A stretch of 64,000 nucleotides of DNA. It comes from Candidatus Methylomirabilota bacterium. GTDB taxonomy: Bacteria > Methylomirabilota > Methylomirabilia > Methylomirabilales > Methylomirabilaceae. Made by a program: the position numbers and the translations under genes. The stretch's first letter is position 1; every line of letters starts with the position of its first letter. Of the stretch, positions 1,190-37,245 are shown piece after piece. The notes beneath the pieces were generated by a model. That model was not told where the DNA came from. It ran no database searches and saw only the letters and a list, made by a program, of their open reading frames with translations. The stretch is from positions 1 through 64,000 of the forward strand of contig JAGWQH010000107.1 in the NCBI GenBank assembly GCA_028870115.1, read 5' to 3'.

Positions 1190-3883
1190 CTAACCGATCC
1201 GTTCGATGGCGACGGCGCAGACTTTGTATTCGGGGATCTTGGCGAGGGGATCGAGGGCCGAGTTGGTCAGGATGTTGGCGCCCGATTCGGCAAGCTTCAC
1301 GAATGGGATGAAAATCTCTCCAGGTCTGACGGCGTCGGTTGGCTGGGCGAACCCGGTCAGTTCGCCACGACGGGAGGTGAGTCGAACCGGCGTTCCCTCT
1401 TCGAGGCCGAGTCGCTGAGCATCCGCCGGGTTGATGGCGACTTCGAGTCGTGGCGCCAGTTCGAGTAGCCCTTGAACGCGGCGGGTGAGCGTCCCGCCGT
1501 GCCAGTGGTACAGGATGCGACCGGTGTTCAAGAGAAACGGGTAATCGCGGTCTGGTAGTTCGGCAGCCTCAGCCGTTTGCACCACGGGGACAAATTTCGC
1601 CTTTCCGATGGGGAACGACTCAGCATACAGCAAGCGGGTGCCCGGGTGGTCCGATGTAGGACAGGGCCATTGAATCCCTCCCTCGCGGTCCAATCGATCA
1701 TAGGAGATTCCAGCGAGAAACGGGACCAGCCTCGCCATCTCATCGAAGATCTCAGCCGGGTGAGTATAGTGAAATCCCGAACATGGCAGGCCGAGTTTAT
1801 CAGCAACCCGCCTGGCCAGCTCAGAGGTAATCCACCAATCCGGCCTGGCCTCTCCAGGTGGATCGAGCGCCTTTCTGACCCGCTGGACGCGCCGCTCCGA
1901 GTTGGTGAACGTTCCCTCCTTCTCGGCGAAGGCGGCTGTAGGTAGGAACACGTGGGCCAGTTCTGCGGTCTCGTGCAGGAACAGCTCCTGGACCACAAGG
2001 CAATCAAGGTTGGAGAGCGCCTTCTTCGCATGGTGAAGATCGGGTTCTGTGAGCAGGGGGTTCTCGCCGACCATATACATGGCGCGGATCGACCCATTCA
2101 GGCATCCTTCTATCATTTCAGTGAGGGCCATTCCCGCGCTGTCAGAAGGTCGGACGCCCCAGGCCGCCTCGTACTTGTCCAAGACCTCAGGGGTGTAAGT
2201 TTGGTAACCGGGAAGGTGCGTGGGAAGACATCCGGCGTCTCCGCACCCCTGGACATTGTTCTGGCCTCGAAGCGGCGAGATGCCGGAACCGGGAAATCCC
2301 ATCTGTCCGGCGACAAGGGAGAGGTTCAGCAGGGCATGGGCGTTGGCCGTCCCATTCGTATGCTGGGTGATCCCCATCCCCCAGAGCAGGCATGAGCCTG
2401 AGATGGCGGGCTTCGCGTACCAGCGGGCGGCCTGAACGATCTGCTCCTGCGGGACGCCGGTAACCTGTTCGGCGACCTGCAGTGTATACGGTTCCAGCGC
2501 CTTCCGCCACGCGTCGAACCCTTCGGTCCGGTTCCGCACAAACTCAAGGTTGGCCAATCCTTCATCGATGATCACCCGCGCCATCGCGTTAAAGAGGGTG
2601 ACGTCGGTCCCCGGCCGCTGCCGCAGCCAGAGGTCTGCCTGGCCGCACAGCTCGATCCGCTTCGGGTTCACGACGATGAGCCTGGCGCCACGGCTCACGG
2701 CCTGGCGAAGACGGATGGCGATCACCGGATGGTTCGACGACGGATCCGATCCGACGACCATGAGGCAGCCAGACCCCTCGTAATCGTCGTAGGAGTTTGA
2801 CGTAGCCCCAGAGCCCAATGAGCGCAGCATCGCCACGACCGAGGGCGAATGACAGAGGCGGGCGCAGTGATCAATGTTGTTGGTGCCTATCACCGTCCGA
2901 ACGAACTTCTGGACGATATAGCTCTCCTCGTTAGTTCCCTTCGCTGAGGCCAGTGCTCCGAAGCGTCCGCGATGTCTGACCAGGCCCTCCACCGCCGCAT
3001 CGAGCGCTTCGTCCCAGGATACCGGACGCCAGCTCCCATTGCGCCGCACCATGGGCCGAGTGATCCGGTCTGCAGCGTGGACGAACCCTGTCCCGAATCG
3101 CCCCTTGACACAGAGCATGCCGAGACTCGATCGATTCGTGGGGACGTCGTCGGCCATCAGCGCGAGGCGTCCGTCGGCGCGAACGCGAAGGCGTATGCCG
3201 CAGCCGACGCCGCAGTACGGGCAGGTCGTCTCGACTTCTCGCACGATAGACGTGGGTGCTTCCTTGGGCCGGAAGGCCCCCGTTGGACAGGTGGCGACGC
3301 ACTGCCCGCATGAGGTACAGACGGAGGAGGCGAGCGAGCCATCGCCGGAGACCCCCACCTTCATTCGGCTGCTGCGCCCCAACAGGGCGATAGCGCCGAT
3401 CTGCTGGACGTCATCGCAGGCGACGGTGCAGCGGCCGCAGAGGATGCAGGCGTCCCGATCGAGGACGAAGAACGATTTGGTATCGTCTACAGGCGCGTGT
3501 CGCCATGGCATATGGTGGCGGTGGAAGAGCCCGAGTCTGGCGCAGGCATCGGAGAGCTGACCAAACCCGGGCCGATCGAACGAGGGGGTCGCCATACCGC
3601 ACGTGAGGTCAAGGACCCCGCTTCGGATCCGTGTGAGAACGGGATCGTTGGTCGAGACCACCATCCCGTCGCGGGCAGGCAGGTGGCAGGAAGCGGGGAA
3701 GCCGCGCATCCCTTCGACCTTGACTAGGCAGGTCCGGCAGGCGCCGAGGGCAGGCCGATCCGGGTCCTTACATAGCTGTGGAAGCGGGATGCCAAGTCGG
3801 TTGACGGCGTCGAGGACTGTAGCGCCGGGTTGGACCGCTACCCTGGTTCCGTCGATGGTCAGGCTGACGACCGTATCGCCCAT
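1190..3883 (-). CDS. fdsA: NAD-dependent formate dehydrogenase, catalytic molybdopterin subunit
   Basis: This 897-residue protein oxidises formate to CO2 at a Mo/W-bis-pterin centre and passes electrons through Fe-S clusters to the NADH-forming partner encoded just upstream. Domains in order: an N-terminal 2Fe-2S domain (Cys 38, 49, 52, 66), two 4Fe-4S motifs (CILCGRCTVAC and CTSCGQCVATC, about residues 145-205), the molybdopterin-oxidoreductase 4Fe-4S motif CPYCGVGCG near 222, then the catalytic domains. The active-site motif reads CARLCHSP near residue 345, so Cys replaces the selenocysteine of E. coli FdhF. Start chosen at 3883, six bases after GGAAAGGG; an ATG at 3889 overlaps the upstream stop as ATGA but is too close to that site. 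The protein looks soluble: no twin-arginine signal is visible. Confidence 0.9.
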   Translation of the reverse strand: MGDTVVSLTIDGTRVAVQPGATVLDAVNRLGIPLPQLCKDPDRPALGACRTCLVKVEGMRGFPASCHLPARDGMVVSTNDPVLTRIRSGVLDLTCGMATPSFDRPGFGQLSDACARLGLFHRHHMPWRHAPVDDTKSFFVLDRDACILCGRCTVACDDVQQIGAIALLGRSSRMKVGVSGDGSLASSVCTSCGQCVATCPTGAFRPKEAPTSIVREVETTCPYCGVGCGIRLRVRADGRLALMADDVPTNRSSLGMLCVKGRFGTGFVHAADRITRPMVRRNGSWRPVSWDEALDAAVEGLVRHRGRFGALASAKGTNEESYIVQKFVRTVIGTNNIDHCARLCHSPSVVAMLRSLGSGATSNSYDDYEGSGCLMVVGSDPSSNHPVIAIRLRQAVSRGARLIVVNPKRIELCGQADLWLRQRPGTDVTLFNAMARVIIDEGLANLEFVRNRTEGFDAWRKALEPYTLQVAEQVTGVPQEQIVQAARWYAKPAISGSCLLWGMGITQHTNGTANAHALLNLSLVAGQMGFPGSGISPLRGQNNVQGCGDAGCLPTHLPGYQTYTPEVLDKYEAAWGVRPSDSAGMALTEMIEGCLNGSIRAMYMVGENPLLTEPDLHHAKKALSNLDCLVVQELFLHETAELAHVFLPTAAFAEKEGTFTNSERRVQRVRKALDPPGEARPDWWITSELARRVADKLGLPCSGFHYTHPAEIFDEMARLVPFLAGISYDRLDREGGIQWPCPTSDHPGTRLLYAESFPIGKAKFVPVVQTAEAAELPDRDYPFLLNTGRILYHWHGGTLTRRVQGLLELAPRLEVAINPADAQRLGLEEGTPVRLTSRRGELTGFAQPTDAVRPGEIFIPFVKLAESGANILTNSALDPLAKIPEYKVCAVAIERIG

Positions 3884-3885
3884 CT

Positions 3886-6111
3886 TCATCCCTTTCCAAT
3901 GATATCAGGCGGGGTTGAGAGCATCTCTTGAGGAAACTGATCAACCGCTGAGAGGAGGGACAGGGGCGCCGATTGACCGAGGCCGCACAGCGAGGCCAGC
4001 CGTACCACCTGGGCCAGTTCCTCGATCTCTTGCCGCTGGCCGGAGTTCTGAGGCTGCTGAAGGAGCGCGAGCAGGCGACCTGTTCCCTCTCGACATGGCG
4101 TGCATTTGCCGCACGACTCCCGCGCATTGAAGGCAAGGAGCGTCCGAGTGACATCGCCGATTGAAGCGCTCTCGCCGAGGGCGACCACACCCCCGCTTCC
4201 AGGCGAGATCGTTCCGCCTGGAACCAGCGGCTCATCGAACCGACTGGGGTGGACGATAACGCCGGATGGTCCACCGACGAGCGCCGCCTTCAGTGGTCGT
4301 CCATCTCCACTTCCTCCGCCAATCGCTTCACACAAATGACGGAGCGTGACGCCCATCGGCGCCTCCACGATCCCCGGTCGGGCGAGGTGGCCGGAGAGGC
4401 CGAACAGCTTAGTTCCCCGTCCTCCACCGATGGCGGCAAACCACGCGGCGCCTCGACTGACGATCAGCGGTACCGCTGCGAGGGTTTCCACGTTGTTGAT
4501 CACCGTCGGCTTCCCCCATAGCCCCGCCTCCACCGGGAACGGGGGCTTGGGGCGAGGCATGGCGCGCCTGCCTTCGATGGCTTCCATGAGCGCCGTCTCT
4601 TCCCCGAGGATAAAGCCGCCTGCACCACGACGAAGCTCCAGGTGAAAGGAGAAATCGCTTCCAAGGATTTGCTCGCCGAGCAGTCCGGCCGCCTCAGCCG
4701 ATCGAAGCGCGTTCTCCATTCGACGCGCTGCGAGGTCGGCCTCACCGTTGATGAAGAGTATGCCGCGGTTGACTCCGGAGGCGAAGGCCGCCAACAGGAT
4801 ACCTTCCAACAGCCGATGGGGATCACCCTCCATCAGGTGGCGGTCCTTGAAAATACCGGGCTCACCCTCTTCGCCGTTGATCACGAGATACTTGAGGGGT
4901 CCTGCCGCATTGCGGCAGGCCTCCCATTTATGCGCGGCTCCGAAGTACGCGCCACCCCGTCCGGCAAGGCCGGACGCTTTGACCTCGTTGATGACGGCGA
5001 CCGCGTCGCCCTGTTGGAGGGAGCGAGCGAATCCCGCATAGCTCCCGTGACGCAAGGCGTCGGCCAGATCGTTCGCATCGACCACTCCACAGCGGTCGAG
5101 AACAGCTCGATGCTGGCCGCTCAGGAACGGCTCGTGAGCGAGACCGGAGATCTCGCGCCAGGACGATTCCTGCCAGGCCACCGCATTAAGTCCTGTGGGG
5201 AGTCGATCCTCCTTCAGCGCCGAGACCAAGGGAATGACATTATCGACATTCATAGCCTTGAGCGTCATTCTCGGCCAGCCGGATCGGTACAGTTCTACAA
5301 CGGGAGCGGCATAGCACATGCCGTTGCAGCCGCCCTCCATGACGGTCGCGGACAGCCCTTGATGCTTTACCTCCTCTGTCAGCCTTTCCATAAGGAGGTC
5401 GGCCCCGACCGATGCGCTGCAACTCCCCACACCGACAATGAGCCTGAGTGCTGAAGGCTGACGGGTGAGCGATTGTGTGACAAGCTGTTCGAGGGCAGCT
5501 ACAGGAGTATCGCTGCTTGGCTTCAACAGGGCCGGGACGGAGACGAGCGATATCCGAGAAGCGGCAGGATCGAATAGTCTGTCGAGTTGATCTGTGCCGA
5601 CTCGTCCATAACAGCGATGATCTACCTCGACGACAGGGGCCATCGAACACCTGAAGAGGCAATCGGCCTCTTCGAGGGTGACGCTTTGATCCGGCGACGT
5701 CTCGCCGGCTCTAAGTCCAAGACGATCCTGCAGGGTGTGGAGCAGCGTCAGACCACCTTGAATGCGACAGCTCGTACCGGTACAGACGCGAATCAAGCGG
5801 GCGCCCGGCTTGACAAGGCGAAACTCCGGGTACTGGGTGGCAACTCCGTACACCTCGCTCTTGGGGACCCGGAGGTGGAGAGCCACCGCCACGAGGCTCT
5901 CCGGACTCAGCCAGCCCTCGGCCCCTTGCGCCGCTTGCAGTGCCGGCAGGAGCCACGTCCGCTCCCGTGGAAACTGTGCAATCAGTGCGCGAAGAGCATA
6001 TTGATCCGGCGGTATCACGGATACGCCTCCCACAGATTCATGTCGTGTAGCGGTGATAGAGTTGTCGTACCCGGACAGTCGCATGAAGACCGCCTTCATG
6101 TCAAGAGTCAT
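3886..6111 (-). CDS. fdsB: Fused NuoE/NuoF-like diaphorase subunit of formate dehydrogenase
   Basis: This 741-residue protein combines what FDS enzymes often split into gamma and beta subunits. Residues 30-170 are a NuoE-type thioredoxin-like 2Fe-2S domain (Cys 110, 115, 151, 155). A second thioredoxin-like segment with GGCNGMC follows near 260. Then comes the NuoF core, with the FMN/NADH site GLAGRGGAYFG and NGEEGEPG and a C-terminal 4Fe-4S motif ESCGKCTPCREG...C. It should accept electrons from the catalytic subunit and reduce NAD+. It is co-transcribed with that subunit (ATGA overlap). The frame is open further upstream but would then overlap the divergent Lrp-like gene. The ATG at 6111 has no Shine-Dalgarno but lies exactly where transcription from the adjacent promoter should begin. 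Confidence 0.85.
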   Translation of the reverse strand: MTLDMKAVFMRLSGYDNSITATRHESVGGVSVIPPDQYALRALIAQFPRERTWLLPALQAAQGAEGWLSPESLVAVALHLRVPKSEVYGVATQYPEFRLVKPGARLIRVCTGTSCRIQGGLTLLHTLQDRLGLRAGETSPDQSVTLEEADCLFRCSMAPVVEVDHRCYGRVGTDQLDRLFDPAASRISLVSVPALLKPSSDTPVAALEQLVTQSLTRQPSALRLIVGVGSCSASVGADLLMERLTEEVKHQGLSATVMEGGCNGMCYAAPVVELYRSGWPRMTLKAMNVDNVIPLVSALKEDRLPTGLNAVAWQESSWREISGLAHEPFLSGQHRAVLDRCGVVDANDLADALRHGSYAGFARSLQQGDAVAVINEVKASGLAGRGGAYFGAAHKWEACRNAAGPLKYLVINGEEGEPGIFKDRHLMEGDPHRLLEGILLAAFASGVNRGILFINGEADLAARRMENALRSAEAAGLLGEQILGSDFSFHLELRRGAGGFILGEETALMEAIEGRRAMPRPKPPFPVEAGLWGKPTVINNVETLAAVPLIVSRGAAWFAAIGGGRGTKLFGLSGHLARPGIVEAPMGVTLRHLCEAIGGGSGDGRPLKAALVGGPSGVIVHPSRFDEPLVPGGTISPGSGGVVALGESASIGDVTRTLLAFNARESCGKCTPCREGTGRLLALLQQPQNSGQRQEIEELAQVVRLASLCGLGQSAPLSLLSAVDQFPQEMLSTPPDIIGKG

Positions 6112-7196: not shown

Positions 7197-8414
7197 ATGC
7201 CGGCGAGGTCTGAAAAACAGGCCAAACCCAGTGCGGCGGAGTGGAAAGAACTCAGGCGCCGTTGCGAGGAACTCAGTATCTCTATCGAGTCGATGCGGGC
7301 CTATTATGAGGATCTGCTGGGAAGCCTGCAAGACGGTATTATCATCGTCGAATCGGATGGACGTATCCGCTCAATCAATCAAGCAGCAGAGGAGCTGACC
7401 GGAGTGTCGGCGCAGGTATTGTACGGAAGGCCCTTTGAGCAGATATTTCCGAATGATCGCTCGCTGCAGGAGTTGGTACGGAAGACCATGGAGAGCGGCC
7501 GGACACATGCCGATTTCGATGCCAGACTGACGAGGCAGGACGGCTCGCAGGTGGTCATCAGCGCCGTGTCCTCCCTCATCAGCGATGGCACGGGTCAGGC
7601 GCGGGGCACCGTCCTGGTGCTCCGGGACCAGACCGGGATCAGGGAACTTGAGGAGCGTCTGCAGCGATCAGACCGCTTGGCGGCTCTCGGGACGGTAGCC
7701 GCAGGGGTGGCTCATGAGATCCGCAACCCGCTGGCCGGCCTCAGGGGGGCGGCGCAGTTACTCGAGGGCGAGCCTGACTTTCCTCCCGTTCTGAAAGAAT
7801 ACACTTTGGTGATTGTAAAAGAGGTTGATCGGCTCGGCGCGATTGTTGAGCGGCTGCTGTCTTTTGCCACACCTCGCGGTCCGGTCCTTCGCTCGTGTAA
7901 CCTGCACGAAATCCTCGATGATCTCTTCTTTTTAGAGCGGGCGCCGTTGGGCGCTGCCAATGTCACGGTTCAGCGTCAGTACGACCCGCAGCTCCCTGAA
8001 ATCCTCGCTGATCCCTCTGAAATCCGGCAACTGTTTCTGAACCTGATCCGTAATGGGGTCGAGGCGATGCCGGGCGGAGGAGATCTTACCGTTCGGACGC
8101 GGTATGAGCGATCTGCCAAACGCTGCGGGGGCCGGTCGGTGGCCGTGGCCGAGATTATCGATCAGGGGAGCGGGTTCGATCCCGAGATTGAGCGCCACCT
8201 GTTCACCCCGTTCTTCACCACAAAAGAAAGGGGGACCGGGTTGGGGCTGGCCATCTGCCTCCGGATTGTGGAAGACCATGGCGGAGCCATGGAGGCGACA
8301 AGCTCACCGGGCAGGGGCAGCAGGTTTCGAGTATGGCTGCCCCTTGCGAAACAACCCGAAGCGGTCTCATCTCACGATGAACCTCATCGGACTGCGCAGG
8401 ACTTCAGGGCATGA
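7197..8414 (+). CDS. NtrB-type PAS sensor histidine kinase
   Basis: This 405-residue cytoplasmic kinase has no membrane segment. It has a short N-terminal coiled helix, a PAS domain (about 35-150, with DGIIIVESDGRIRSIN near its start), a HisKA dimerisation box with the phospho-acceptor His in GVAHEIRNPLAG (about 175), and an HATPase domain with N box NLIRNGVEAMP, G1 DQGSGFD and G2 GTGLGLAI. This architecture matches NtrB/AtoS/ZraS-class kinases that phosphorylate a sigma-54 activator. The partner starts four bases inside its stop codon (ATGA). A GAGG site precedes the start at 7197. The stimulus is unknown, and its cytoplasmic location argues for an internal signal such as nitrogen or redox status. 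Confidence 0.9.
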   Translation: MPARSEKQAKPSAAEWKELRRRCEELSISIESMRAYYEDLLGSLQDGIIIVESDGRIRSINQAAEELTGVSAQVLYGRPFEQIFPNDRSLQELVRKTMESGRTHADFDARLTRQDGSQVVISAVSSLISDGTGQARGTVLVLRDQTGIRELEERLQRSDRLAALGTVAAGVAHEIRNPLAGLRGAAQLLEGEPDFPPVLKEYTLVIVKEVDRLGAIVERLLSFATPRGPVLRSCNLHEILDDLFFLERAPLGAANVTVQRQYDPQLPEILADPSEIRQLFLNLIRNGVEAMPGGGDLTVRTRYERSAKRCGGRSVAVAEIIDQGSGFDPEIERHLFTPFFTTKERGTGLGLAICLRIVEDHGGAMEATSSPGRGSRFRVWLPLAKQPEAVSSHDEPHRTAQDFRA

Positions 8415-9874
8415 TTCAGACACGACAGATCCTCGTCGTTGATGACGAAGAAAGCATCCGTTGGGCCCTCCGCAAGGCGCTTGAGCGCGAGGGGTATCGG
8501 GTTGTACTGGCCGCCGATGGGATCGAGGGGCTCAAGCTGGCTACAGACCCGGGCATCGACCTTGTCCTTATGGATATCAAGATGCCGGGCGCAGAGGGGC
8601 TGGAAACCCTCAGTAAGATTAAAGAGGCCCGTCCGGGGCTTCCCGTCATCATTATGACCGCATTCGGCACACTCCAGGCTGCGGTCCAGGCGATGAAGCG
8701 CGGGGCCTATGATTACATTACTAAGCCGTTTGACTTCGGCGAACTCACGATTCTGGTGCAGCGAGTCTTTGAGATCCGTGAGCTGACTGAGCGGGTGGCG
8801 CAGATGGAGGCCCTCGGCGGCCGGCCCTTTGACTTCGGAGGAGTGGTCGGCCTCTGTCCGGCCATGCAACAGATCTTCAAGCTGGTGGGGAAGATGGCCG
8901 CCAGCGACCTGACCGTTCTCGTCAGGGGCGAGAGCGGCACCGGGAAGGAACTGCTGGCGAAAGCGATTCATTACAACAGCCGGCGCTCTGCGCGTCCGTT
9001 TGTGGCCGTCAACTGCGCGGCCATCCCTCGTGAGCTGCTCGAGAGCGAGCTGTTCGGTCACGAGCGGGGCGCCTTTACAGGAGCCAGCGCCCTTCGGCGC
9101 GGCAAGTTCGAGCTCGCGGAGGGCGGGACGATCTTCCTCGATGAGATCGGAGATATGGATATCGGCCTGCAGGCCAAAATCCTGCGTGTGCTCCAAGAAC
9201 GGCAGTTTGAGCGGGTAGGGGGCGAACGGTCGCTCTCTGCCGATGTAAGGGTTATCGCCGCCACGAATCAAAAACTCGAAGCTGCCGTCGCACAGAAGAG
9301 CTTTCGAGAAGATCTCTACTATCGCCTGAACGTCGTCACCATCAATCTTCCGCCCCTTCGAGAGCGGATCGAAGATATCCCTTTGCTTGTGAACCACTTC
9401 CTGCATCGGTTTGCGGAAGAGCAGAGGCAGGAGCCAAAGACCCTGCCGCCAGAGACGCTTGAGCTGATGCTTGCGTATCGCTGGCCCGGAAATGTCCGCG
9501 AGCTGGAGAATGCTGTAAAAAGGGCTTGCGTGCTTGCTCCGACCTCTCTCATCCTGCCGGAGCATCTGCCTGCCGCTCTCCTGCACGCAGAGGAACTGGG
9601 CGCCGCTGGTGGCGGCTCCTCCTTCGAACGGTTGCTGTCTCAAGGGATTGCGGGCGAGCTGTTCCGTGTGCAACAGGAACGAGACGGGCAGATCTATGCG
9701 TACTTCCTCGCCGCGCTGGAGCGGCCTCTTCTTCTGCGCGTCCTGGAGAAGACCGGCGGGAACCAGCTTCGGGCGGCTGAGTTGCTCGGGATCAATCGCA
9801 ACACGCTCCGAAAGAAACTCCGTGAGCTCGGCATCACGCCTGCCCGCAGCGATGAAGAGAAAACGAAAGGGTGA
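8411..9874 (+). CDS. NtrC-family sigma-54-dependent response regulator
   Basis: This 487-residue protein has a receiver domain (phospho-acceptor Asp in VLMDIKMPG near 55, Lys in ITKPFD near 105) and an AAA+ sigma-54 activation domain. The AAA+ part has Walker A GESGTGKE near 175, the sigma-54 contact loop GAFTGA near 225 and Walker B TIFLDEIGDM. A Fis-type HTH (GGNQLRAAELLGINRNTL) lies at the C-terminus. It should be phosphorylated by the kinase encoded just upstream and drive open-complex formation at -24/-12 promoters. Three such promoters are proposed in this window. The linker between AAA+ and HTH is longer than in E. coli NtrC. The target set is unproven. Confidence 0.92.
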   Translation: MIQTRQILVVDDEESIRWALRKALEREGYRVVLAADGIEGLKLATDPGIDLVLMDIKMPGAEGLETLSKIKEARPGLPVIIMTAFGTLQAAVQAMKRGAYDYITKPFDFGELTILVQRVFEIRELTERVAQMEALGGRPFDFGGVVGLCPAMQQIFKLVGKMAASDLTVLVRGESGTGKELLAKAIHYNSRRSARPFVAVNCAAIPRELLESELFGHERGAFTGASALRRGKFELAEGGTIFLDEIGDMDIGLQAKILRVLQERQFERVGGERSLSADVRVIAATNQKLEAAVAQKSFREDLYYRLNVVTINLPPLRERIEDIPLLVNHFLHRFAEEQRQEPKTLPPETLELMLAYRWPGNVRELENAVKRACVLAPTSLILPEHLPAALLHAEELGAAGGGSSFERLLSQGIAGELFRVQQERDGQIYAYFLAALERPLLLRVLEKTGGNQLRAAELLGINRNTLRKKLRELGITPARSDEEKTKG

Positions 9875-12323: not shown

Positions 12324-12653
12324 TCAGGCGAGCGTGAGGATGATCTCGCCTCCTTCCACGCGAACCGGATAGGTCTGAACAGCGTAGTCCCCGTCAACCG
12401 ATGCCCCCGTCTTCAGATCGAACTGTCGGCCGTGAAGAGGGCAGATCACCTTCCCACCCCCGATGATGCCGTCTGCCAGCGGGCCCCCTCGATGCGGACA
12501 CGCGTTTTTCGTGGCGAATAGCTGCCCATCGCGCTGACGGAATACGGCGATGGGGCAGCCGTCTACGACGTAGGTACAGCCCTGGCCGAGCGGGATCGCA
12601 TCGACCGGACCAAGCGGCACAACGATCTCCAGTGAGGCGTGCTTCATCTCCAT
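12324..12653 (-). CDS. nirD: Nitrite reductase (NADH) small subunit, Rieske type
   Basis: This is a 109-residue Rieske-fold protein. The cluster ligands are visible as CPHRGGPL and, about 16 residues later, CPLHGRQFD. It matches NirD of assimilatory NADH-nitrite reductases. Its start lies just past the end of nirB, with GAGGTG upstream, so the two are translated together. NirD is thought to support electron transfer within the NirB complex. The enzyme reduces nitrite to ammonium in the cytoplasm. Confidence 0.88.
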   Translation of the reverse strand: MEMKHASLEIVVPLGPVDAIPLGQGCTYVVDGCPIAVFRQRDGQLFATKNACPHRGGPLADGIIGGGKVICPLHGRQFDLKTGASVDGDYAVQTYPVRVEGGEIILTLA

Positions 12654-12656
12654 GCT

Positions 12657-15077
12657 TCACCTCTTCAGTTCCACAAGTACGGGTCCGCCGAACTGGGCCG
12701 GGTACACAGGTGCATCCGCCTCGGCCCAGGGATCTGTGCGGGCCTCGACCGCCCGTTCGATCTCGGCATCCAACCGCGCACCGATCCCTTCCACATCCTT
12801 GACGAGCAGCTCGCGTAGCTCGTCAATGCCGACGCGTTCCACAAGTCCATACGCCCGCTCCATGTACTTGCCATGCTCGCGGTAGTACTGGATGAAACGG
12901 CCCATGTATGTCAGAACCTCTTCGTGAGTCTTCACTGTGCACAGGAGGTCTGCGGCGCGCACCCGGGTCCCGGCGCCGCCGCCCACGTAGACCTGCCAAC
13001 CGCCCTCGATGGCGACGGCTCCAAGGTCTTTGACGGTAGACTCGGCGCAGTTCCTCGGACAGCCCACCGCAGCGAGCTTCATCTTGTGCGGAGTCTCGAT
13101 ACCATGAAACCGCTTTTCGATCTTGATCCCCAGCGCGATGGAATCGCCGAGGCCGAATCGGCAAAAGAGCGATCCCACGCAAGTTTTACACGAACGGACC
13201 GCCTTGGTGTAGGCGTGACCGCTGGCCATTCCAAGATCTTTCCAGACGTGCGGAAGTTGCTCCTTCCTCACGCCCGCCAGCGCGATCCGCTGGCCACCGG
13301 TCAGCTTGATCGCCGGAACCTGGTACCTCTCCGCCACATCGGCGATGCGTCGAAGCTCCGCCGGCGAGGTGACGCCGCCGTAGATTCGCGGCACGACCGA
13401 GAACGTCCCGTCCTTCTGGATGTTGGCGTGGACCCGGTCGTTGATGAACCGCGCATCGCGTTCGTCTTCATACTCCCCGGCCCAGATGGTCTTGAGAAGC
13501 GACGCCAGGGCCGCTTTATGGCTCGGTTCCTCTCGTCCGCCGTTGAGCTCACGGAAGAGCGCGCTGACACTCTTGATGCCTTTGGCCTTGATGGCGGCCA
13601 CCAGCTCGGGCCTGGTCATCGGGAGACTCGGCACATACCAGTGTTCGGCGGGGTCGAGCGCCACCTCTCCGGCATAGACCTCGAGGAACTGCTCGAGGAG
13701 CTTCTTGCAGCCGCCGCAACTTGTGCCGGCCCTCGTGCTGGCCCCGATCTGCGAGACTGATCGGCACTTGCCGAACTCGATCGCCTCCTTGATCTGACCT
13801 TTGGTGACCCCGTGACAGTGACAGATCTGAGCGTGATCGGGCAGGTCAAACACCGAGAGGATCGGGGCGCCGGTGGAGGTGCCGAAGAGCAGGTCGGCCC
13901 GCCGATCCGGAAGTTCCGCGTTCAGCAGGAACATTTGGGTGAGCACCCCCGCCGTATCCGTCTCGCCAAGAAGGGTGGCGCCGGCGAGCCGGTTGTTGCG
14001 TATGATCATCTTCTTATAAACGCCCCGCGATGGCTCGACGTAGCTGACGACCTCGTCTTGAGGGTCAGATGGAATCGTGTCGCCCATCGAGACAAGCTGT
14101 ATGCCCATTACTTTCAGTTTGGTTATGGACCTTGAACCCTGGTAGCCGCCATTGGACAAGACGCCGGTCAGGTGCTCCGCCAGTACCCTGGCCTGGTCGT
14201 ACAGGGGCGCCACAAGACCATAGAGCTTGCCCCGATGCTGAGCGCACTCACCGACAGCGTAGATGTCCGGATCAGAGGTCTGCATCCGGTCATTCACGAC
14301 GATCCCCCGATCCACCGCGAGTCCGAATCTTTCGGCAAGCTCGGCGTTAGGCCGGATGCCGCAACTCATCACCACCATGTCGGTGTCGAGCGTCGTACCA
14401 TCCTGAAACTCCAGGCCTGTGAGCCGCTTGCCCCCGAGCGCCCGCGTCACGGTCTTCCCGAGAAGCGTCTGCACGCCCATCTGCTCCATCGACCGTTGCA
14501 GCAGCGCGCCTCCCTCGGCGTCCAATTGCTGTGCCATCAACCACGGCATCATTTCGACGACTGTGACCTGGAGCCCGAGGGAGAGCAGACCCCGCGCAGC
14601 CTCCAGACCCAGCAGACCGCCGCCCATGACGGCAGCCCTCCGACATCCTCTCGCATATGCTTCAATCGTCTGACAGTCATCGAGGGTTCGAAAGACGAAG
14701 ACGCCGATCTTCTCCAACGCCTTCACCGGGGGTACCAAGGCCCGGCTGCCGGTAGCGATGATCAGCGTATCGTATGATTCCTCTATGCCGCCTCCTCTTA
14801 CTATCTTGTTGTCGCGATCGATAGCGGTGGCCGGCATCCCTGCATGTAACGTGATGTTGTGATCGCGGTACCAGTCGAGGGAGTTCAAAAAGATCTGCTT
14901 GGCGTCCTTGGAACCGGTCAGTACATCCGAGAGGAGGGTGCGGTCGTAGTTGCCGTATGGCTCCGAGCCGAACATCACAACGTGAAACCGTTCACGATCC
15001 CGGGACAGGATCTCTTGAACAACCTTGGTCCCGGCCATGCCGTTGCCGATAACGACGAGCCTTGTTCGTCCGTCCAT
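12657..15077 (-). CDS. nirB: Nitrite reductase (NADH) large subunit
   Basis: This 806-residue protein reduces nitrite to ammonium with NADH. Domains in order: an FAD/NAD-binding pyridine nucleotide-disulphide oxidoreductase (GNGMAGTKVVQ at the N-terminus, second GxGxxG as GGGLLGLEAARG near 150); a BFD-like 2Fe-2S domain (CHCHGVTKGQI ... CGGCKK, about 415-460); a sulfite/nitrite reductase ferredoxin-like half domain; and the 4Fe-4S/siroheme domain with CKTCVGSLFC and GCPRNC. Length is slightly below the typical 830-850. It is preceded by an unusual 100-base leader and a -24/-12 promoter. No nitrate reductase or transporter gene is next to it. Confidence 0.93.
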   Translation of the reverse strand: MDGRTRLVVIGNGMAGTKVVQEILSRDRERFHVVMFGSEPYGNYDRTLLSDVLTGSKDAKQIFLNSLDWYRDHNITLHAGMPATAIDRDNKIVRGGGIEESYDTLIIATGSRALVPPVKALEKIGVFVFRTLDDCQTIEAYARGCRRAAVMGGGLLGLEAARGLLSLGLQVTVVEMMPWLMAQQLDAEGGALLQRSMEQMGVQTLLGKTVTRALGGKRLTGLEFQDGTTLDTDMVVMSCGIRPNAELAERFGLAVDRGIVVNDRMQTSDPDIYAVGECAQHRGKLYGLVAPLYDQARVLAEHLTGVLSNGGYQGSRSITKLKVMGIQLVSMGDTIPSDPQDEVVSYVEPSRGVYKKMIIRNNRLAGATLLGETDTAGVLTQMFLLNAELPDRRADLLFGTSTGAPILSVFDLPDHAQICHCHGVTKGQIKEAIEFGKCRSVSQIGASTRAGTSCGGCKKLLEQFLEVYAGEVALDPAEHWYVPSLPMTRPELVAAIKAKGIKSVSALFRELNGGREEPSHKAALASLLKTIWAGEYEDERDARFINDRVHANIQKDGTFSVVPRIYGGVTSPAELRRIADVAERYQVPAIKLTGGQRIALAGVRKEQLPHVWKDLGMASGHAYTKAVRSCKTCVGSLFCRFGLGDSIALGIKIEKRFHGIETPHKMKLAAVGCPRNCAESTVKDLGAVAIEGGWQVYVGGGAGTRVRAADLLCTVKTHEEVLTYMGRFIQYYREHGKYMERAYGLVERVGIDELRELLVKDVEGIGARLDAEIERAVEARTDPWAEADAPVYPAQFGGPVLVELKR

Positions 15078-15101
15078 CCTCTGCCTCCGCTGCTTAAGAA
15101 G

Positions 15102-15137
15102 AACGACGCCGGCCCCTCATGGGGAACCGGCGCCGTT
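15102..15137 (-). terminator. Attenuator-like hairpin in the nirB leader
   Basis: In the RNA sense AACGGCGCCGG pairs with CCGGCGTCGTT, and inside the loop CCCC pairs with GGGG, giving one long GC-rich hairpin followed by CTTCTT. It ends about 25 bases before the nirB start, so it must be passed for nirBD expression. Confidence 0.65.
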
Positions 15138-15150
15138 GCCGTCCTGAAGC

Positions 15151-15166
15151 CACCCAGCCTCGGGTG
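15151..15166 (-). promoter_or_regulatory. Hexaloop hairpin upstream of the nirB attenuator
   Basis: In the RNA sense CACCC-GAGGCT-GGGTG forms a 5-bp stem, extendable to about nine pairs with wobbles, and exposes a six-base loop with G at position 4. ANTAR antiterminators of the NasR/NasT type bind tandem hexaloop hairpins of this kind. The usual A at loop position 1 is G here. Confidence 0.4.
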
Positions 15167-15186
15167 ACCTGATGCTTGAAAGACTT

Positions 15187-15203
15187 CGCAATTACGATGC
15201 CAA
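15187..15203 (-). promoter_or_regulatory. Sigma-54-type -24/-12 promoter of nirBD
   Basis: The minus strand reads TTGGCATCGTAATTGCG. The -24 GG and -12 GC are separated by the required ten bases. Transcription would begin near 15176 and produce the hairpin-bearing leader described above. Confidence 0.65.
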
Positions 15204-15525
15204 CTGTTCGGACGACAGAGTCAAGGACGGTATAGGCCGTTAAATTAAGGAGTTAGGGCGCAACGTCAGGCCTCCGGTAGACGGCTGTGGCGAGAACGGC
15301 TGCACGATACAGAGGCAACGGGGTAAGAGGGGTGTGCATATGTTAAGCGCGTGGGCCATTCAAGGGTCTACTCTGCAGTTTTTGCTTTAGCGCGTCAGGA
15401 TGAGCGCATAGACCATATACGCCGAAATGCGTATTGACACCCCTGGGCTTCTATTACAGTCTTTGGCACAGAGTTGTTGAGGGGTCCAGCGTCGAAGGAC
15501 GCCCGACGCAGGCGAGAAAGGGGCG
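15204..15525. other. Upstream region of nirB and of the response regulator gene
   Basis: No gene seen. A TTGACA at 15433-15438 has no good -10 partner at 17 bases. TTTGGCACAGAGTTGTTG (about 15460-15477) resembles a -24/-12 promoter but has the wrong spacing. Activator sites for nirB would be expected here; I see no clear dyad. Confidence 0.4.
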
Positions 15526-16068: not shown

Positions 16069-17322
16069 TCATAGGTTGATGAGGTACGACGTAGCTTTTC
16101 TGTGCAGGGCGCTTAGCCAGTCCAGTGGCGGCTTCCCGGTACCGTGTCCCTCACCGAACCGTCCGATAAAGTCCTCGACGAGATGTATATGCGTGATGCG
16201 CCAGTCAAGCGGGATGACCTGAATGAGGGCGTTATACGCCTGCACGAGTCTTTCGTTACGCCTTCGCTCCAAAACGAATAATCGAATCTTCGAGGTCTGC
16301 CGGACGAATTCGATGAGATCCCGGAACGGTTTCGACATATACCCTCGCATACGCGGAAAGTAGGGGTCGTCGTCGTGGTCGATGCCCGCGGCGGCAAGCT
16401 GGAAGTGCATGAACGGGGTTTGCCCTCCCGTCTCCCCTAACTTTTGTTGAGGTTTGCCCCCCAGTTCCTCCACGCCTTCGAACACCACGCTGTTGGGGAA
16501 GGTGAAGAACAGGCGCACCCGGTTGAAGTAGGTCCCATAGTCGCAGTGCTCCCGCATCCGCTTGAGCACCGCAACGGCGCTCCGTGCGGCCTTCGCGGCG
16601 TTATTCAAATACTGAATCATCTCACTGACGATCGCCTCTTCTCCGAGATTCGGCAAAGAGGGCATCGAACCGTCGGGATCGCCGATGCGCGAGAGCAGGC
16701 AGGCTTTAAGCAGTTCCGGTATCGCGGGCGCAAATGCCGTTTCGACTGCTTGATGAATCCGTACGAACCACCGCTCATCCAGTGTTCCGGTGAAGGAGTG
16801 GATCAATTCAATATTCTCCAAGCTGACCGGCTTTTTGGGATCTTTGCGGTAGTAGTTCCAGAGGGCGTAGAGGCCATAGGACATCGTCGGTTCCATACCG
16901 ATCCGCCTTGAGGCGCGCCAGAGCGGCACCGCGAGTGGCGCAGGCAGGATCTTCGGACTCTGATCCTGCATCAGTTCCGATACATTGCCATAGGGGCATA
17001 TCTCTCGGAAGTAGGCGTGCGTGGACATGGCGTAGATCAACATCAGGCGACAGGCCACCGGCCATGGTAGATCCTCGAATGACCAGCAGGGAACCTCCAG
17101 CCGTCTGACTGAGTCAGCGACCGTCCGCTCGCTGATCGTCTGTTCGAGCAAATAGGCCATCGCGTCTAGCTGTATGAAATCGTTCGTCCGTTCAGCGTGA
17201 CCGGCATCCTCCGGCAGCCACCGCAAGGGCCGCTCTGCGAGAAACCCCGTCTCGAACGACACGCCATGCTGTTCCATGAGCCGTCTGACTTCGTTCTGGA
17301 GTATCGTAGAATCGTTTTTCAT
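16069..17322 (-). CDS. Indoleamine 2,3-dioxygenase-family haem protein
   Basis: This 417-residue, largely helical protein has no signal peptide. The blocks SYGLYALWNYY, LFFTFPNSVVFEGVEELGG, GGQTPFMHF and the C-terminal YMSKPFRDLIEFVRQ ... DWRITHIHLVEDFI follow the order seen in indoleamine 2,3-dioxygenases. The His in THIHLVEDFI is at the place of the proximal haem ligand (H346 of human IDO1). Family members cleave the indole ring of tryptophan, but bacterial IDO-like proteins are diverse and some have other roles (for example PrnB). No kynurenine pathway gene accompanies it, so the substrate is open. Divergent neighbours are a small peptide ORF and a CBS protein. Confidence 0.8.
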   Translation of the reverse strand: MKNDSTILQNEVRRLMEQHGVSFETGFLAERPLRWLPEDAGHAERTNDFIQLDAMAYLLEQTISERTVADSVRRLEVPCWSFEDLPWPVACRLMLIYAMSTHAYFREICPYGNVSELMQDQSPKILPAPLAVPLWRASRRIGMEPTMSYGLYALWNYYRKDPKKPVSLENIELIHSFTGTLDERWFVRIHQAVETAFAPAIPELLKACLLSRIGDPDGSMPSLPNLGEEAIVSEMIQYLNNAAKAARSAVAVLKRMREHCDYGTYFNRVRLFFTFPNSVVFEGVEELGGKPQQKLGETGGQTPFMHFQLAAAGIDHDDDPYFPRMRGYMSKPFRDLIEFVRQTSKIRLFVLERRRNERLVQAYNALIQVIPLDWRITHIHLVEDFIGRFGEGHGTGKPPLDWLSALHRKATSYLINL

Positions 17323-27830: not shown

Positions 27831-27850
27831 TTGGCATAACTCTTGCTTTT
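27831..27850 (+). promoter_or_regulatory. Sigma-54-type promoter of the second Cus operon
   Basis: TTGGCATAACTCTTGCTTTT has GG at 27833-27834 and GC at 27845-27846, with ten bases between, and a T-run after the -12. Expected start about 27858, some 38 bases before the small membrane-protein gene. Confidence 0.65.
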
Positions 27851-37226: not shown

Positions 37227-37245
37227 TTGGCATCGGCATTGCTCC
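37227..37245 (+). promoter_or_regulatory. Sigma-54-type promoter of the 37-kb block
   Basis: TTGGCATCGGCATTGCTCC has GG at 37229-37230 and GC at 37241-37242, ten bases apart. Transcription would begin near 37254, 28 bases before the response regulator gene that opens the block. Confidence 0.6.

Follow-up and report, generated by a model that had tools for sequence, protein, structure and literature searches.

A probable ANTAR-controlled transcription attenuator downstream of a sigma-54-type promoter for nirBD in Candidatus Methylomirabilis

The EutV-controlled eutP leader of Enterococcus faecalis (Ramesh 2012, PMC3369931; structure PMC8934654) provides a framework for understanding how ANTAR proteins act on nascent RNA, with two hexaloop hairpins (P1 and P2) separated by a short linker, a P2 that overlaps a terminator, and a receiver-ANTAR protein as regulator. 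An A at loop position 1 and a G at position 4 (A1 and G4) form a hexaloop signature that matters for both NasR and EutV, and mutating the base at position 1 of the P1 loop impaired EutV control (PMC3369931); the same authors list nitrite reductase, ammonium transporter and PII genes under ANTAR control (PMC3369931). Nitrate and nitrite assimilation is the target of the receiver-ANTAR protein of the NasS-NasT system of Paracoccus, which also involves leader hairpins (PMC3795266), and of the NIT-ANTAR protein NasR of Klebsiella, where a hexaloop hairpin and a terminator lie ahead of the assimilation genes in the nasF leader. In the AmiC-AmiR system of Pseudomonas, the ANTAR domain of AmiR is joined to a non-phosphorylated pseudo-receiver (PMC3369936). 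The nirBD leader described here resembles each of these in part. It shares the layout of the eutP leader and a receiver-ANTAR regulator, but differs in a receiver that lacks the phospho-accepting Asp, a G at position 1 of the P1 loop, a target in nitrite reduction instead of ethanolamine, and a sigma-54 promoter. Its target and leader hairpins recall NasS-NasT and NasR-nasF, whereas a NasS-type sensor was not found, the regulator gene is linked to amt/glnK or to an amino-acid permease, and the regulator is a receiver-ANTAR rather than a NIT-ANTAR protein. The receiver resembles that of AmiR, which serves a different target. The combination of a sigma-54 promoter with ANTAR-type attenuation at nirBD is well supported, and we consider it very probable that the leader is an ANTAR-controlled transcription attenuator downstream of that promoter.

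The window analysed is a 64 kb stretch from a Candidatus Methylomirabilis genome (phylum Methylomirabilota, NC10) of 2.8 Mb in 122 contigs. The regulated gene, nirB, encodes the nitrite reductase large subunit (12657-15077, minus strand; TIGR02374, 880 bits, cut-off 578), carries a GGAGG Shine-Dalgarno sequence at 15084-15088 (minus strand), and is followed by nirD for the small subunit (12324-12653, minus strand; TIGR02378, 76.8 bits, cut-off 74.65). Among named genomes the best matches to its NirB come from Methylomirabilis and Methylomirabilota MAGs at 84-89% identity, and the closest NirB outside the genus, at 56% identity, belongs to an Omnitrophota MAG. In that MAG a GAF-GAF-ANTAR gene lies directly upstream of nirB (locus L005, 40-1416), with two strong tandem terminator-like hairpins between the two genes. 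Elsewhere on the minus strand, positions 16069-17322 encode an indoleamine 2,3-dioxygenase-family protein (PF01231).

Upstream of the leader, a sigma-54-type -24/-12 site (TTGGCATCGTAATTGCG; 15187-15203, minus strand) places GG at 15201-15200 and GC at 15189-15188, from which a transcription start near 15176 is predicted. The window contains TTGGCAYNNNNNTTGC three times, where shuffles give an expectation of 0.04. All seven relatives read have a TTGG-N8-TTGC site upstream of P1, at a near-equal distance from it in five (G021, G024, G025, G026, G032) and further upstream in G031 and G034. The genome also encodes rpoN, so that the -24 GG, the -12 GC and the RpoN that together define a sigma-54-dependent promoter are all present, and the sigma-54-like promoter that the original prediction placed ahead of nirBD is borne out. 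Two more sigma-54-like sites of the form TTGGCAY-N5-TTGC lie in the window at 27831-27846 and 37227-37242 (both plus strand). A candidate activator of the nirBD promoter, an NtrC-like sigma-54 activator, is encoded at 8411-9874 (plus strand; TIGR01818, 544 bits, below the cut-off of 558.6), beside an NtrB-like PAS histidine kinase at 7197-8414 (plus strand). Simple patterns found no NtrC-type half-sites upstream of the nirBD promoter. The stretch upstream of the sigma-54 site (15207-15355, minus strand) has blocks in common with relatives (TAACATATG, TTGCCT..TATCGTGCAG and CCTAACTCCTTAATTTA), and these conserved blocks are possible activator sites.

Between the promoter and nirB, the leader holds three hairpins, all on the minus strand. 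P1, the putative recruitment hairpin (15147-15170), has a 9-bp stem and the hexaloop GAGGCU (15161-15156), with G4 in place but a G where A1 would be; in the minimum-energy fold a G-U pair forms across this loop. The last hairpin is a predicted, GC-rich terminator of 15 pairs (AACGGCGCCGGUUCC-CCAUGA-GGGGCCGGCGUCGUU; 15102-15137), which ends 24 nt before the nirB ATG and is followed by an interrupted U tract (CUUCUUAA; 15094-15101). These two, at 15170-15147 and 15137-15102, are the hexaloop hairpin and the strong GC-rich hairpin just before nirB that had been predicted from the sequence; the decisive element, overlooked in that prediction, lies between them. This is P2 (15128-15141; CGGC-AACGGC-GCCG), a candidate antiterminator whose hexaloop (15137-15132) has both A1 and G4. 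The loop and 3' arm of P2 are also the first bases of the 5' arm of the terminator, with 15137-15128 shared, and because of this overlap the two hairpins are mutually exclusive. The leader thus has the P2 that overlaps and excludes an intrinsic terminator by which an antitermination leader is defined, with the terminator being predicted and its U tract weak. At -49 kcal/mol the leader is more stable than its shuffled versions (mean -40.2, z -2.3); enforcing P2 leaves it at -38.3 versus -49.0 kcal/mol. In folds of the growing transcript P2 is present from about 53 to 71 nt and, from about 74 nt onwards, gives way to the terminator hairpin.

How far this leader conforms to the known ANTAR targets depends on the definition applied. 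Two hexaloop hairpins of at least 3 bp with a short linker are found, P1 with 9 bp and P2 with 4 bp at a distance of about 5 nt, and the P2 loop AACGGC fits the A1 and G4 that the strict dual-hexaloop definition places in both loops, whereas the P1 loop GAGGCU has G1. The single-hexaloop ANTAR definition, with its conserved positions 1 and 4, is satisfied through P2. As P1 fails the test for a strict A1, we call the leader a variant of the dual-hexaloop ANTAR target that fits the single-hexaloop definition via P2. A scan for a P1 loop [AG]xxGxx and a P2 loop AxxGxx separated by a gap of -2 to 16, with an overlapping hairpin of at least 8 bp and at least 5 U, returned this place alone on both strands of the 64 kb, against an average of 0.075 in 40 dinucleotide shuffles, a figure that describes rarity rather than an unbiased test, as the thresholds were set after the leader had been seen. 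Rfam returned nothing for the leader at gathering or relaxed thresholds. A mechanical terminator scan left the hairpin at 15137-15102 uncalled, because its tail has four T in eight bases where five are required. The single-hairpin pattern GGCAANGNNGCC proved too common for a genome-wide search (62 occurrences versus 41 in the control); combined with a terminator arm it marks five places in the genome, the nirB leader being the only one established.

Comparison with relatives strengthens the case for P2. Leaders with P1, P2 and a terminator precede nirB in six of them (G021, G024, G026, G031, G032, G034), and in relatives belonging to four Methylomirabilota families P2 is preserved through compensatory changes. 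In 13 Methylomirabilota sequences its inner three pairs never vary, and in Aromatoleum a single compensating change gives A-U; the outer pair takes the forms C-G, A-U, U-A or U-G among the 13, always without mismatch; and A1 and G4 of its loop are invariant in 14 sequences. Across the aligned rows, two of which represent more than one genome and some of which are closely related, so that the counts are not independent events, 89.7% of P2 helix cells are paired against a shuffled mean of 76.6% (0 of 500 shuffles as high; slid versions at most 57.4%), and the covariation score is 0.323 against 0.109 in shuffles and at most 0.075 in slid versions. Since the terminator does not include the 5' arm of P2, this covariation is evidence for P2 itself, and the conservation of that arm requires a reason of its own. 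Among 11 aligned leaders, P2 and the terminator aligned well and P1 poorly, and for that reason P1 covariation was counted in five close relatives alone, where it is weak, with one double change and several one-sided changes. The P1 loops read GAGG[CU][UCG] in these five, GAAGAA in G031, AGAAAG in G034 and GCUGAC in G023, and AGUGAC, AGUGCG and AACGCG in the further genomes G029, G001 and G003, respectively; position 1 is a purine in all of them, position 4 is G in all except G034, and in G029, G001 and G003 both loops carry A1 and G4. The hairpin equivalent to the terminator is followed by CUUUCUUUUU in G031, and the equivalents in G001, G003, G008 and G012 have long U-rich tracts. Beyond the phylum, two Aromatoleum nirB leaders (L007, L008) have a P2 of the form GGAC-AACGGC-GUCC that likewise overlaps a terminator ahead of nirB, and differ in their stems and in a longer terminator. 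In the G024 leader, a stretch of some 200 nt that contains inverted repeats (L002, about 3783-3985) separates the terminator from nirB; it is absent from the other leaders.

Exactly one ANTAR domain is encoded in the genome, in a 223-aa receiver-ANTAR protein. Its gene is on contig C36 and is therefore unlinked to nirB (contig C107); its neighbours encode a Ser/Thr kinase, a PP2C phosphatase, an amino-acid permease and a porin-like protein. At this cluster (L075, 8966-13329, minus strand) the ANTAR gene follows the Ser/Thr kinase and PP2C phosphatase genes, and a permease takes the place of the amt of relatives. In those relatives the same ANTAR gene occurs in porin-amt-ANTAR-DUF2231-NADH dehydrogenase clusters, and it lies 5-14 kb from nirB in G021, G026, G031 and G034. 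The ANTAR domain keeps the residues aligned with EutV R142, K143, K149, E160 and M172, with Y164 replaced by Phe; the RNA-binding roles of these EutV residues have been described (PMC8934654). In the receiver, by contrast with EutV, the position aligned with the phospho-accepting D54 is Ala, as it is in every Methylomirabilota receiver-ANTAR protein read (e.g. L001, L048, L054-L074) in a survey that applied a permissive pattern to fetched loci and covered part of the ANTAR hits of the class. A receiver without the phospho-accepting Asp makes switching by phosphorylation unlikely, and by analogy with AmiR and NasT it is probably a partner protein or a ligand that switches the regulator.

In relatives, this RNA is also found next to ANTAR genes. 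The P2-terminator core lies directly beside an ANTAR gene in eight genomes from four families (G001, G003, G008, G009, G012, G016, G023, G029). Each of these genomes contains the core pattern 1-15 times, which puts the probability of a chance adjacency within 1 kb well below 1% per genome. The genes downstream of the core include nirA with an nrt transporter and a nasA-like reductase (G029), glnK-amt (G008, G012) and a porin-like gene (G003). A dual hexaloop was found neither at the ANTAR/permease cluster of the genome studied here nor at the amt loci fetched. UrtA/AmiC-like Peripla_BP_5 proteins are present in the genus. With P2 covarying around an invariant A1 and G4, its core beside ANTAR genes in eight relatives, and one ANTAR protein encoded in the genome, the resemblance of the leader to ANTAR targets that the original prediction had noted, and the ANTAR gene it would call for, are both upheld.

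The signal appears to be another matter. That prediction had proposed nitrate- or nitrite-dependent antitermination through NasR- or NasT-NasS-type control, and this part is not supported. A search for the NasS-type family PF13379 returned no protein from this genome, the sole ANTAR protein has a receiver with Ala at the phospho-Asp position, and a NIT domain fused to ANTAR was not found. A classical arrangement, in which nitrate or nitrite causes a nitrate sensor to release or activate the ANTAR protein, has in its favour that the target is a nitrite reductase gene, that in G029 the same RNA precedes nirA-nrt-nas, that NasT-type regulators act on such leaders (PMC3795266), and that a NIT-domain protein is encoded elsewhere in the genome. 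The last of these (G000:C104:6943-7452, plus strand; open frame of 649 aa), unfused to ANTAR, is a possible nitrate/nitrite sensor. We nevertheless regard the classical arrangement as unlikely, given that PF13379 proteins occur in three of 15 genus genomes (that of G029 belonging to the transporter of its nas operon) and are absent from the other 12, and that genes linked to this ANTAR lineage include amt, glnK and glnA, with the RNA itself preceding glnK-amt. Given this linkage, nitrogen status is a likelier guess than nitrate, and the recurrence of the linkage across the phylum suggests that nitrogen or ammonium status is the signal, with nitrate or nitrite as a possible one. A broader model, which we put forward only tentatively and hold to be improbable, is a phylum-wide ANTAR system in which an unphosphorylatable receiver encoded with Amt, GlnK and GlnA relays ammonium/PII status, instead of nitrate or the output of a histidine kinase, to the leaders of nirBD, nirA-nrt-nas, glnK-amt and a porin gene.

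Whichever signal applies, ANTAR-controlled attenuation would operate as follows. The sigma-54 promoter, probably driven by the NtrC-like activator, would yield a leader of about 100 nt. By default, as the predicted folds have it, P1 would form, P2 would form briefly, and the terminator would then take the loop and 3' arm of P2, stopping polymerase before nirB. An active ANTAR protein, in the manner of EutV, NasR and AmiR, would bind P1 and then P2 and hold P2 in place, so that polymerase passes and nirBD is transcribed. Counted against this reading are the G1 of P1, the interrupted U tract, the unlinked ANTAR gene, the lack of an Rfam match and a loss in M. oxyfera. In the nirB leader of G025, by inference M. 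oxyfera (L018, 3936-4011, minus strand), a deletion removes the 3' arm of P2 and the 5' arm of the terminator and leaves the sigma-54 site intact; nirBD is accordingly predicted to be unattenuated in that organism, where the switch, lost by deletion, is dispensable. The same deletion, together with the non-canonical P1 and the unlinked ANTAR gene, could mean that the leader is a decayed, non-functional remnant inherited with nirBD and that sigma-54 and NtrC control act alone. P2, the terminator and their spacing are intact here and in six relatives, with changes that preserve pairs, and of the readings weighed we give this one the least credence. Scarcely more probable is a plain attenuator or terminator unrelated to ANTAR, for example one controlled by ribosomes or a leader peptide or a constitutive dampener, for which the terminator hairpin as the most stable element and the base at P1 loop position 1 could be cited; it does not account for the covariation between the 3' arm of P2 and a 5' arm that is no part of the terminator, for the invariance of the P2 loop signature, or for the same RNA adjoining ANTAR genes in eight genomes. 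ANTAR control thus remains our strongly preferred reading of the leader.

In summary, what is new here is an ANTAR system in Methylomirabilota, a P1 loop that departs from A1, and an Ala-bearing receiver linked to Amt/GlnK; in the open-licence literature searched we found no paper on ANTAR control in Methylomirabilis. The receiver-ANTAR proteins read from this phylum have lost the phospho-residue and show the Amt/GlnK linkage, which raises the question of which signal they read. Methylomirabilis couples methane oxidation to nitrite reduction, and the decision to convert nitrite to ammonium for growth bears on how this bacterium partitions nitrite, its main electron acceptor. If the proposed switch is true, sigma-54 control of the nitrite-assimilation genes is followed by a second gate at the level of RNA, one that would act after transcription has begun.
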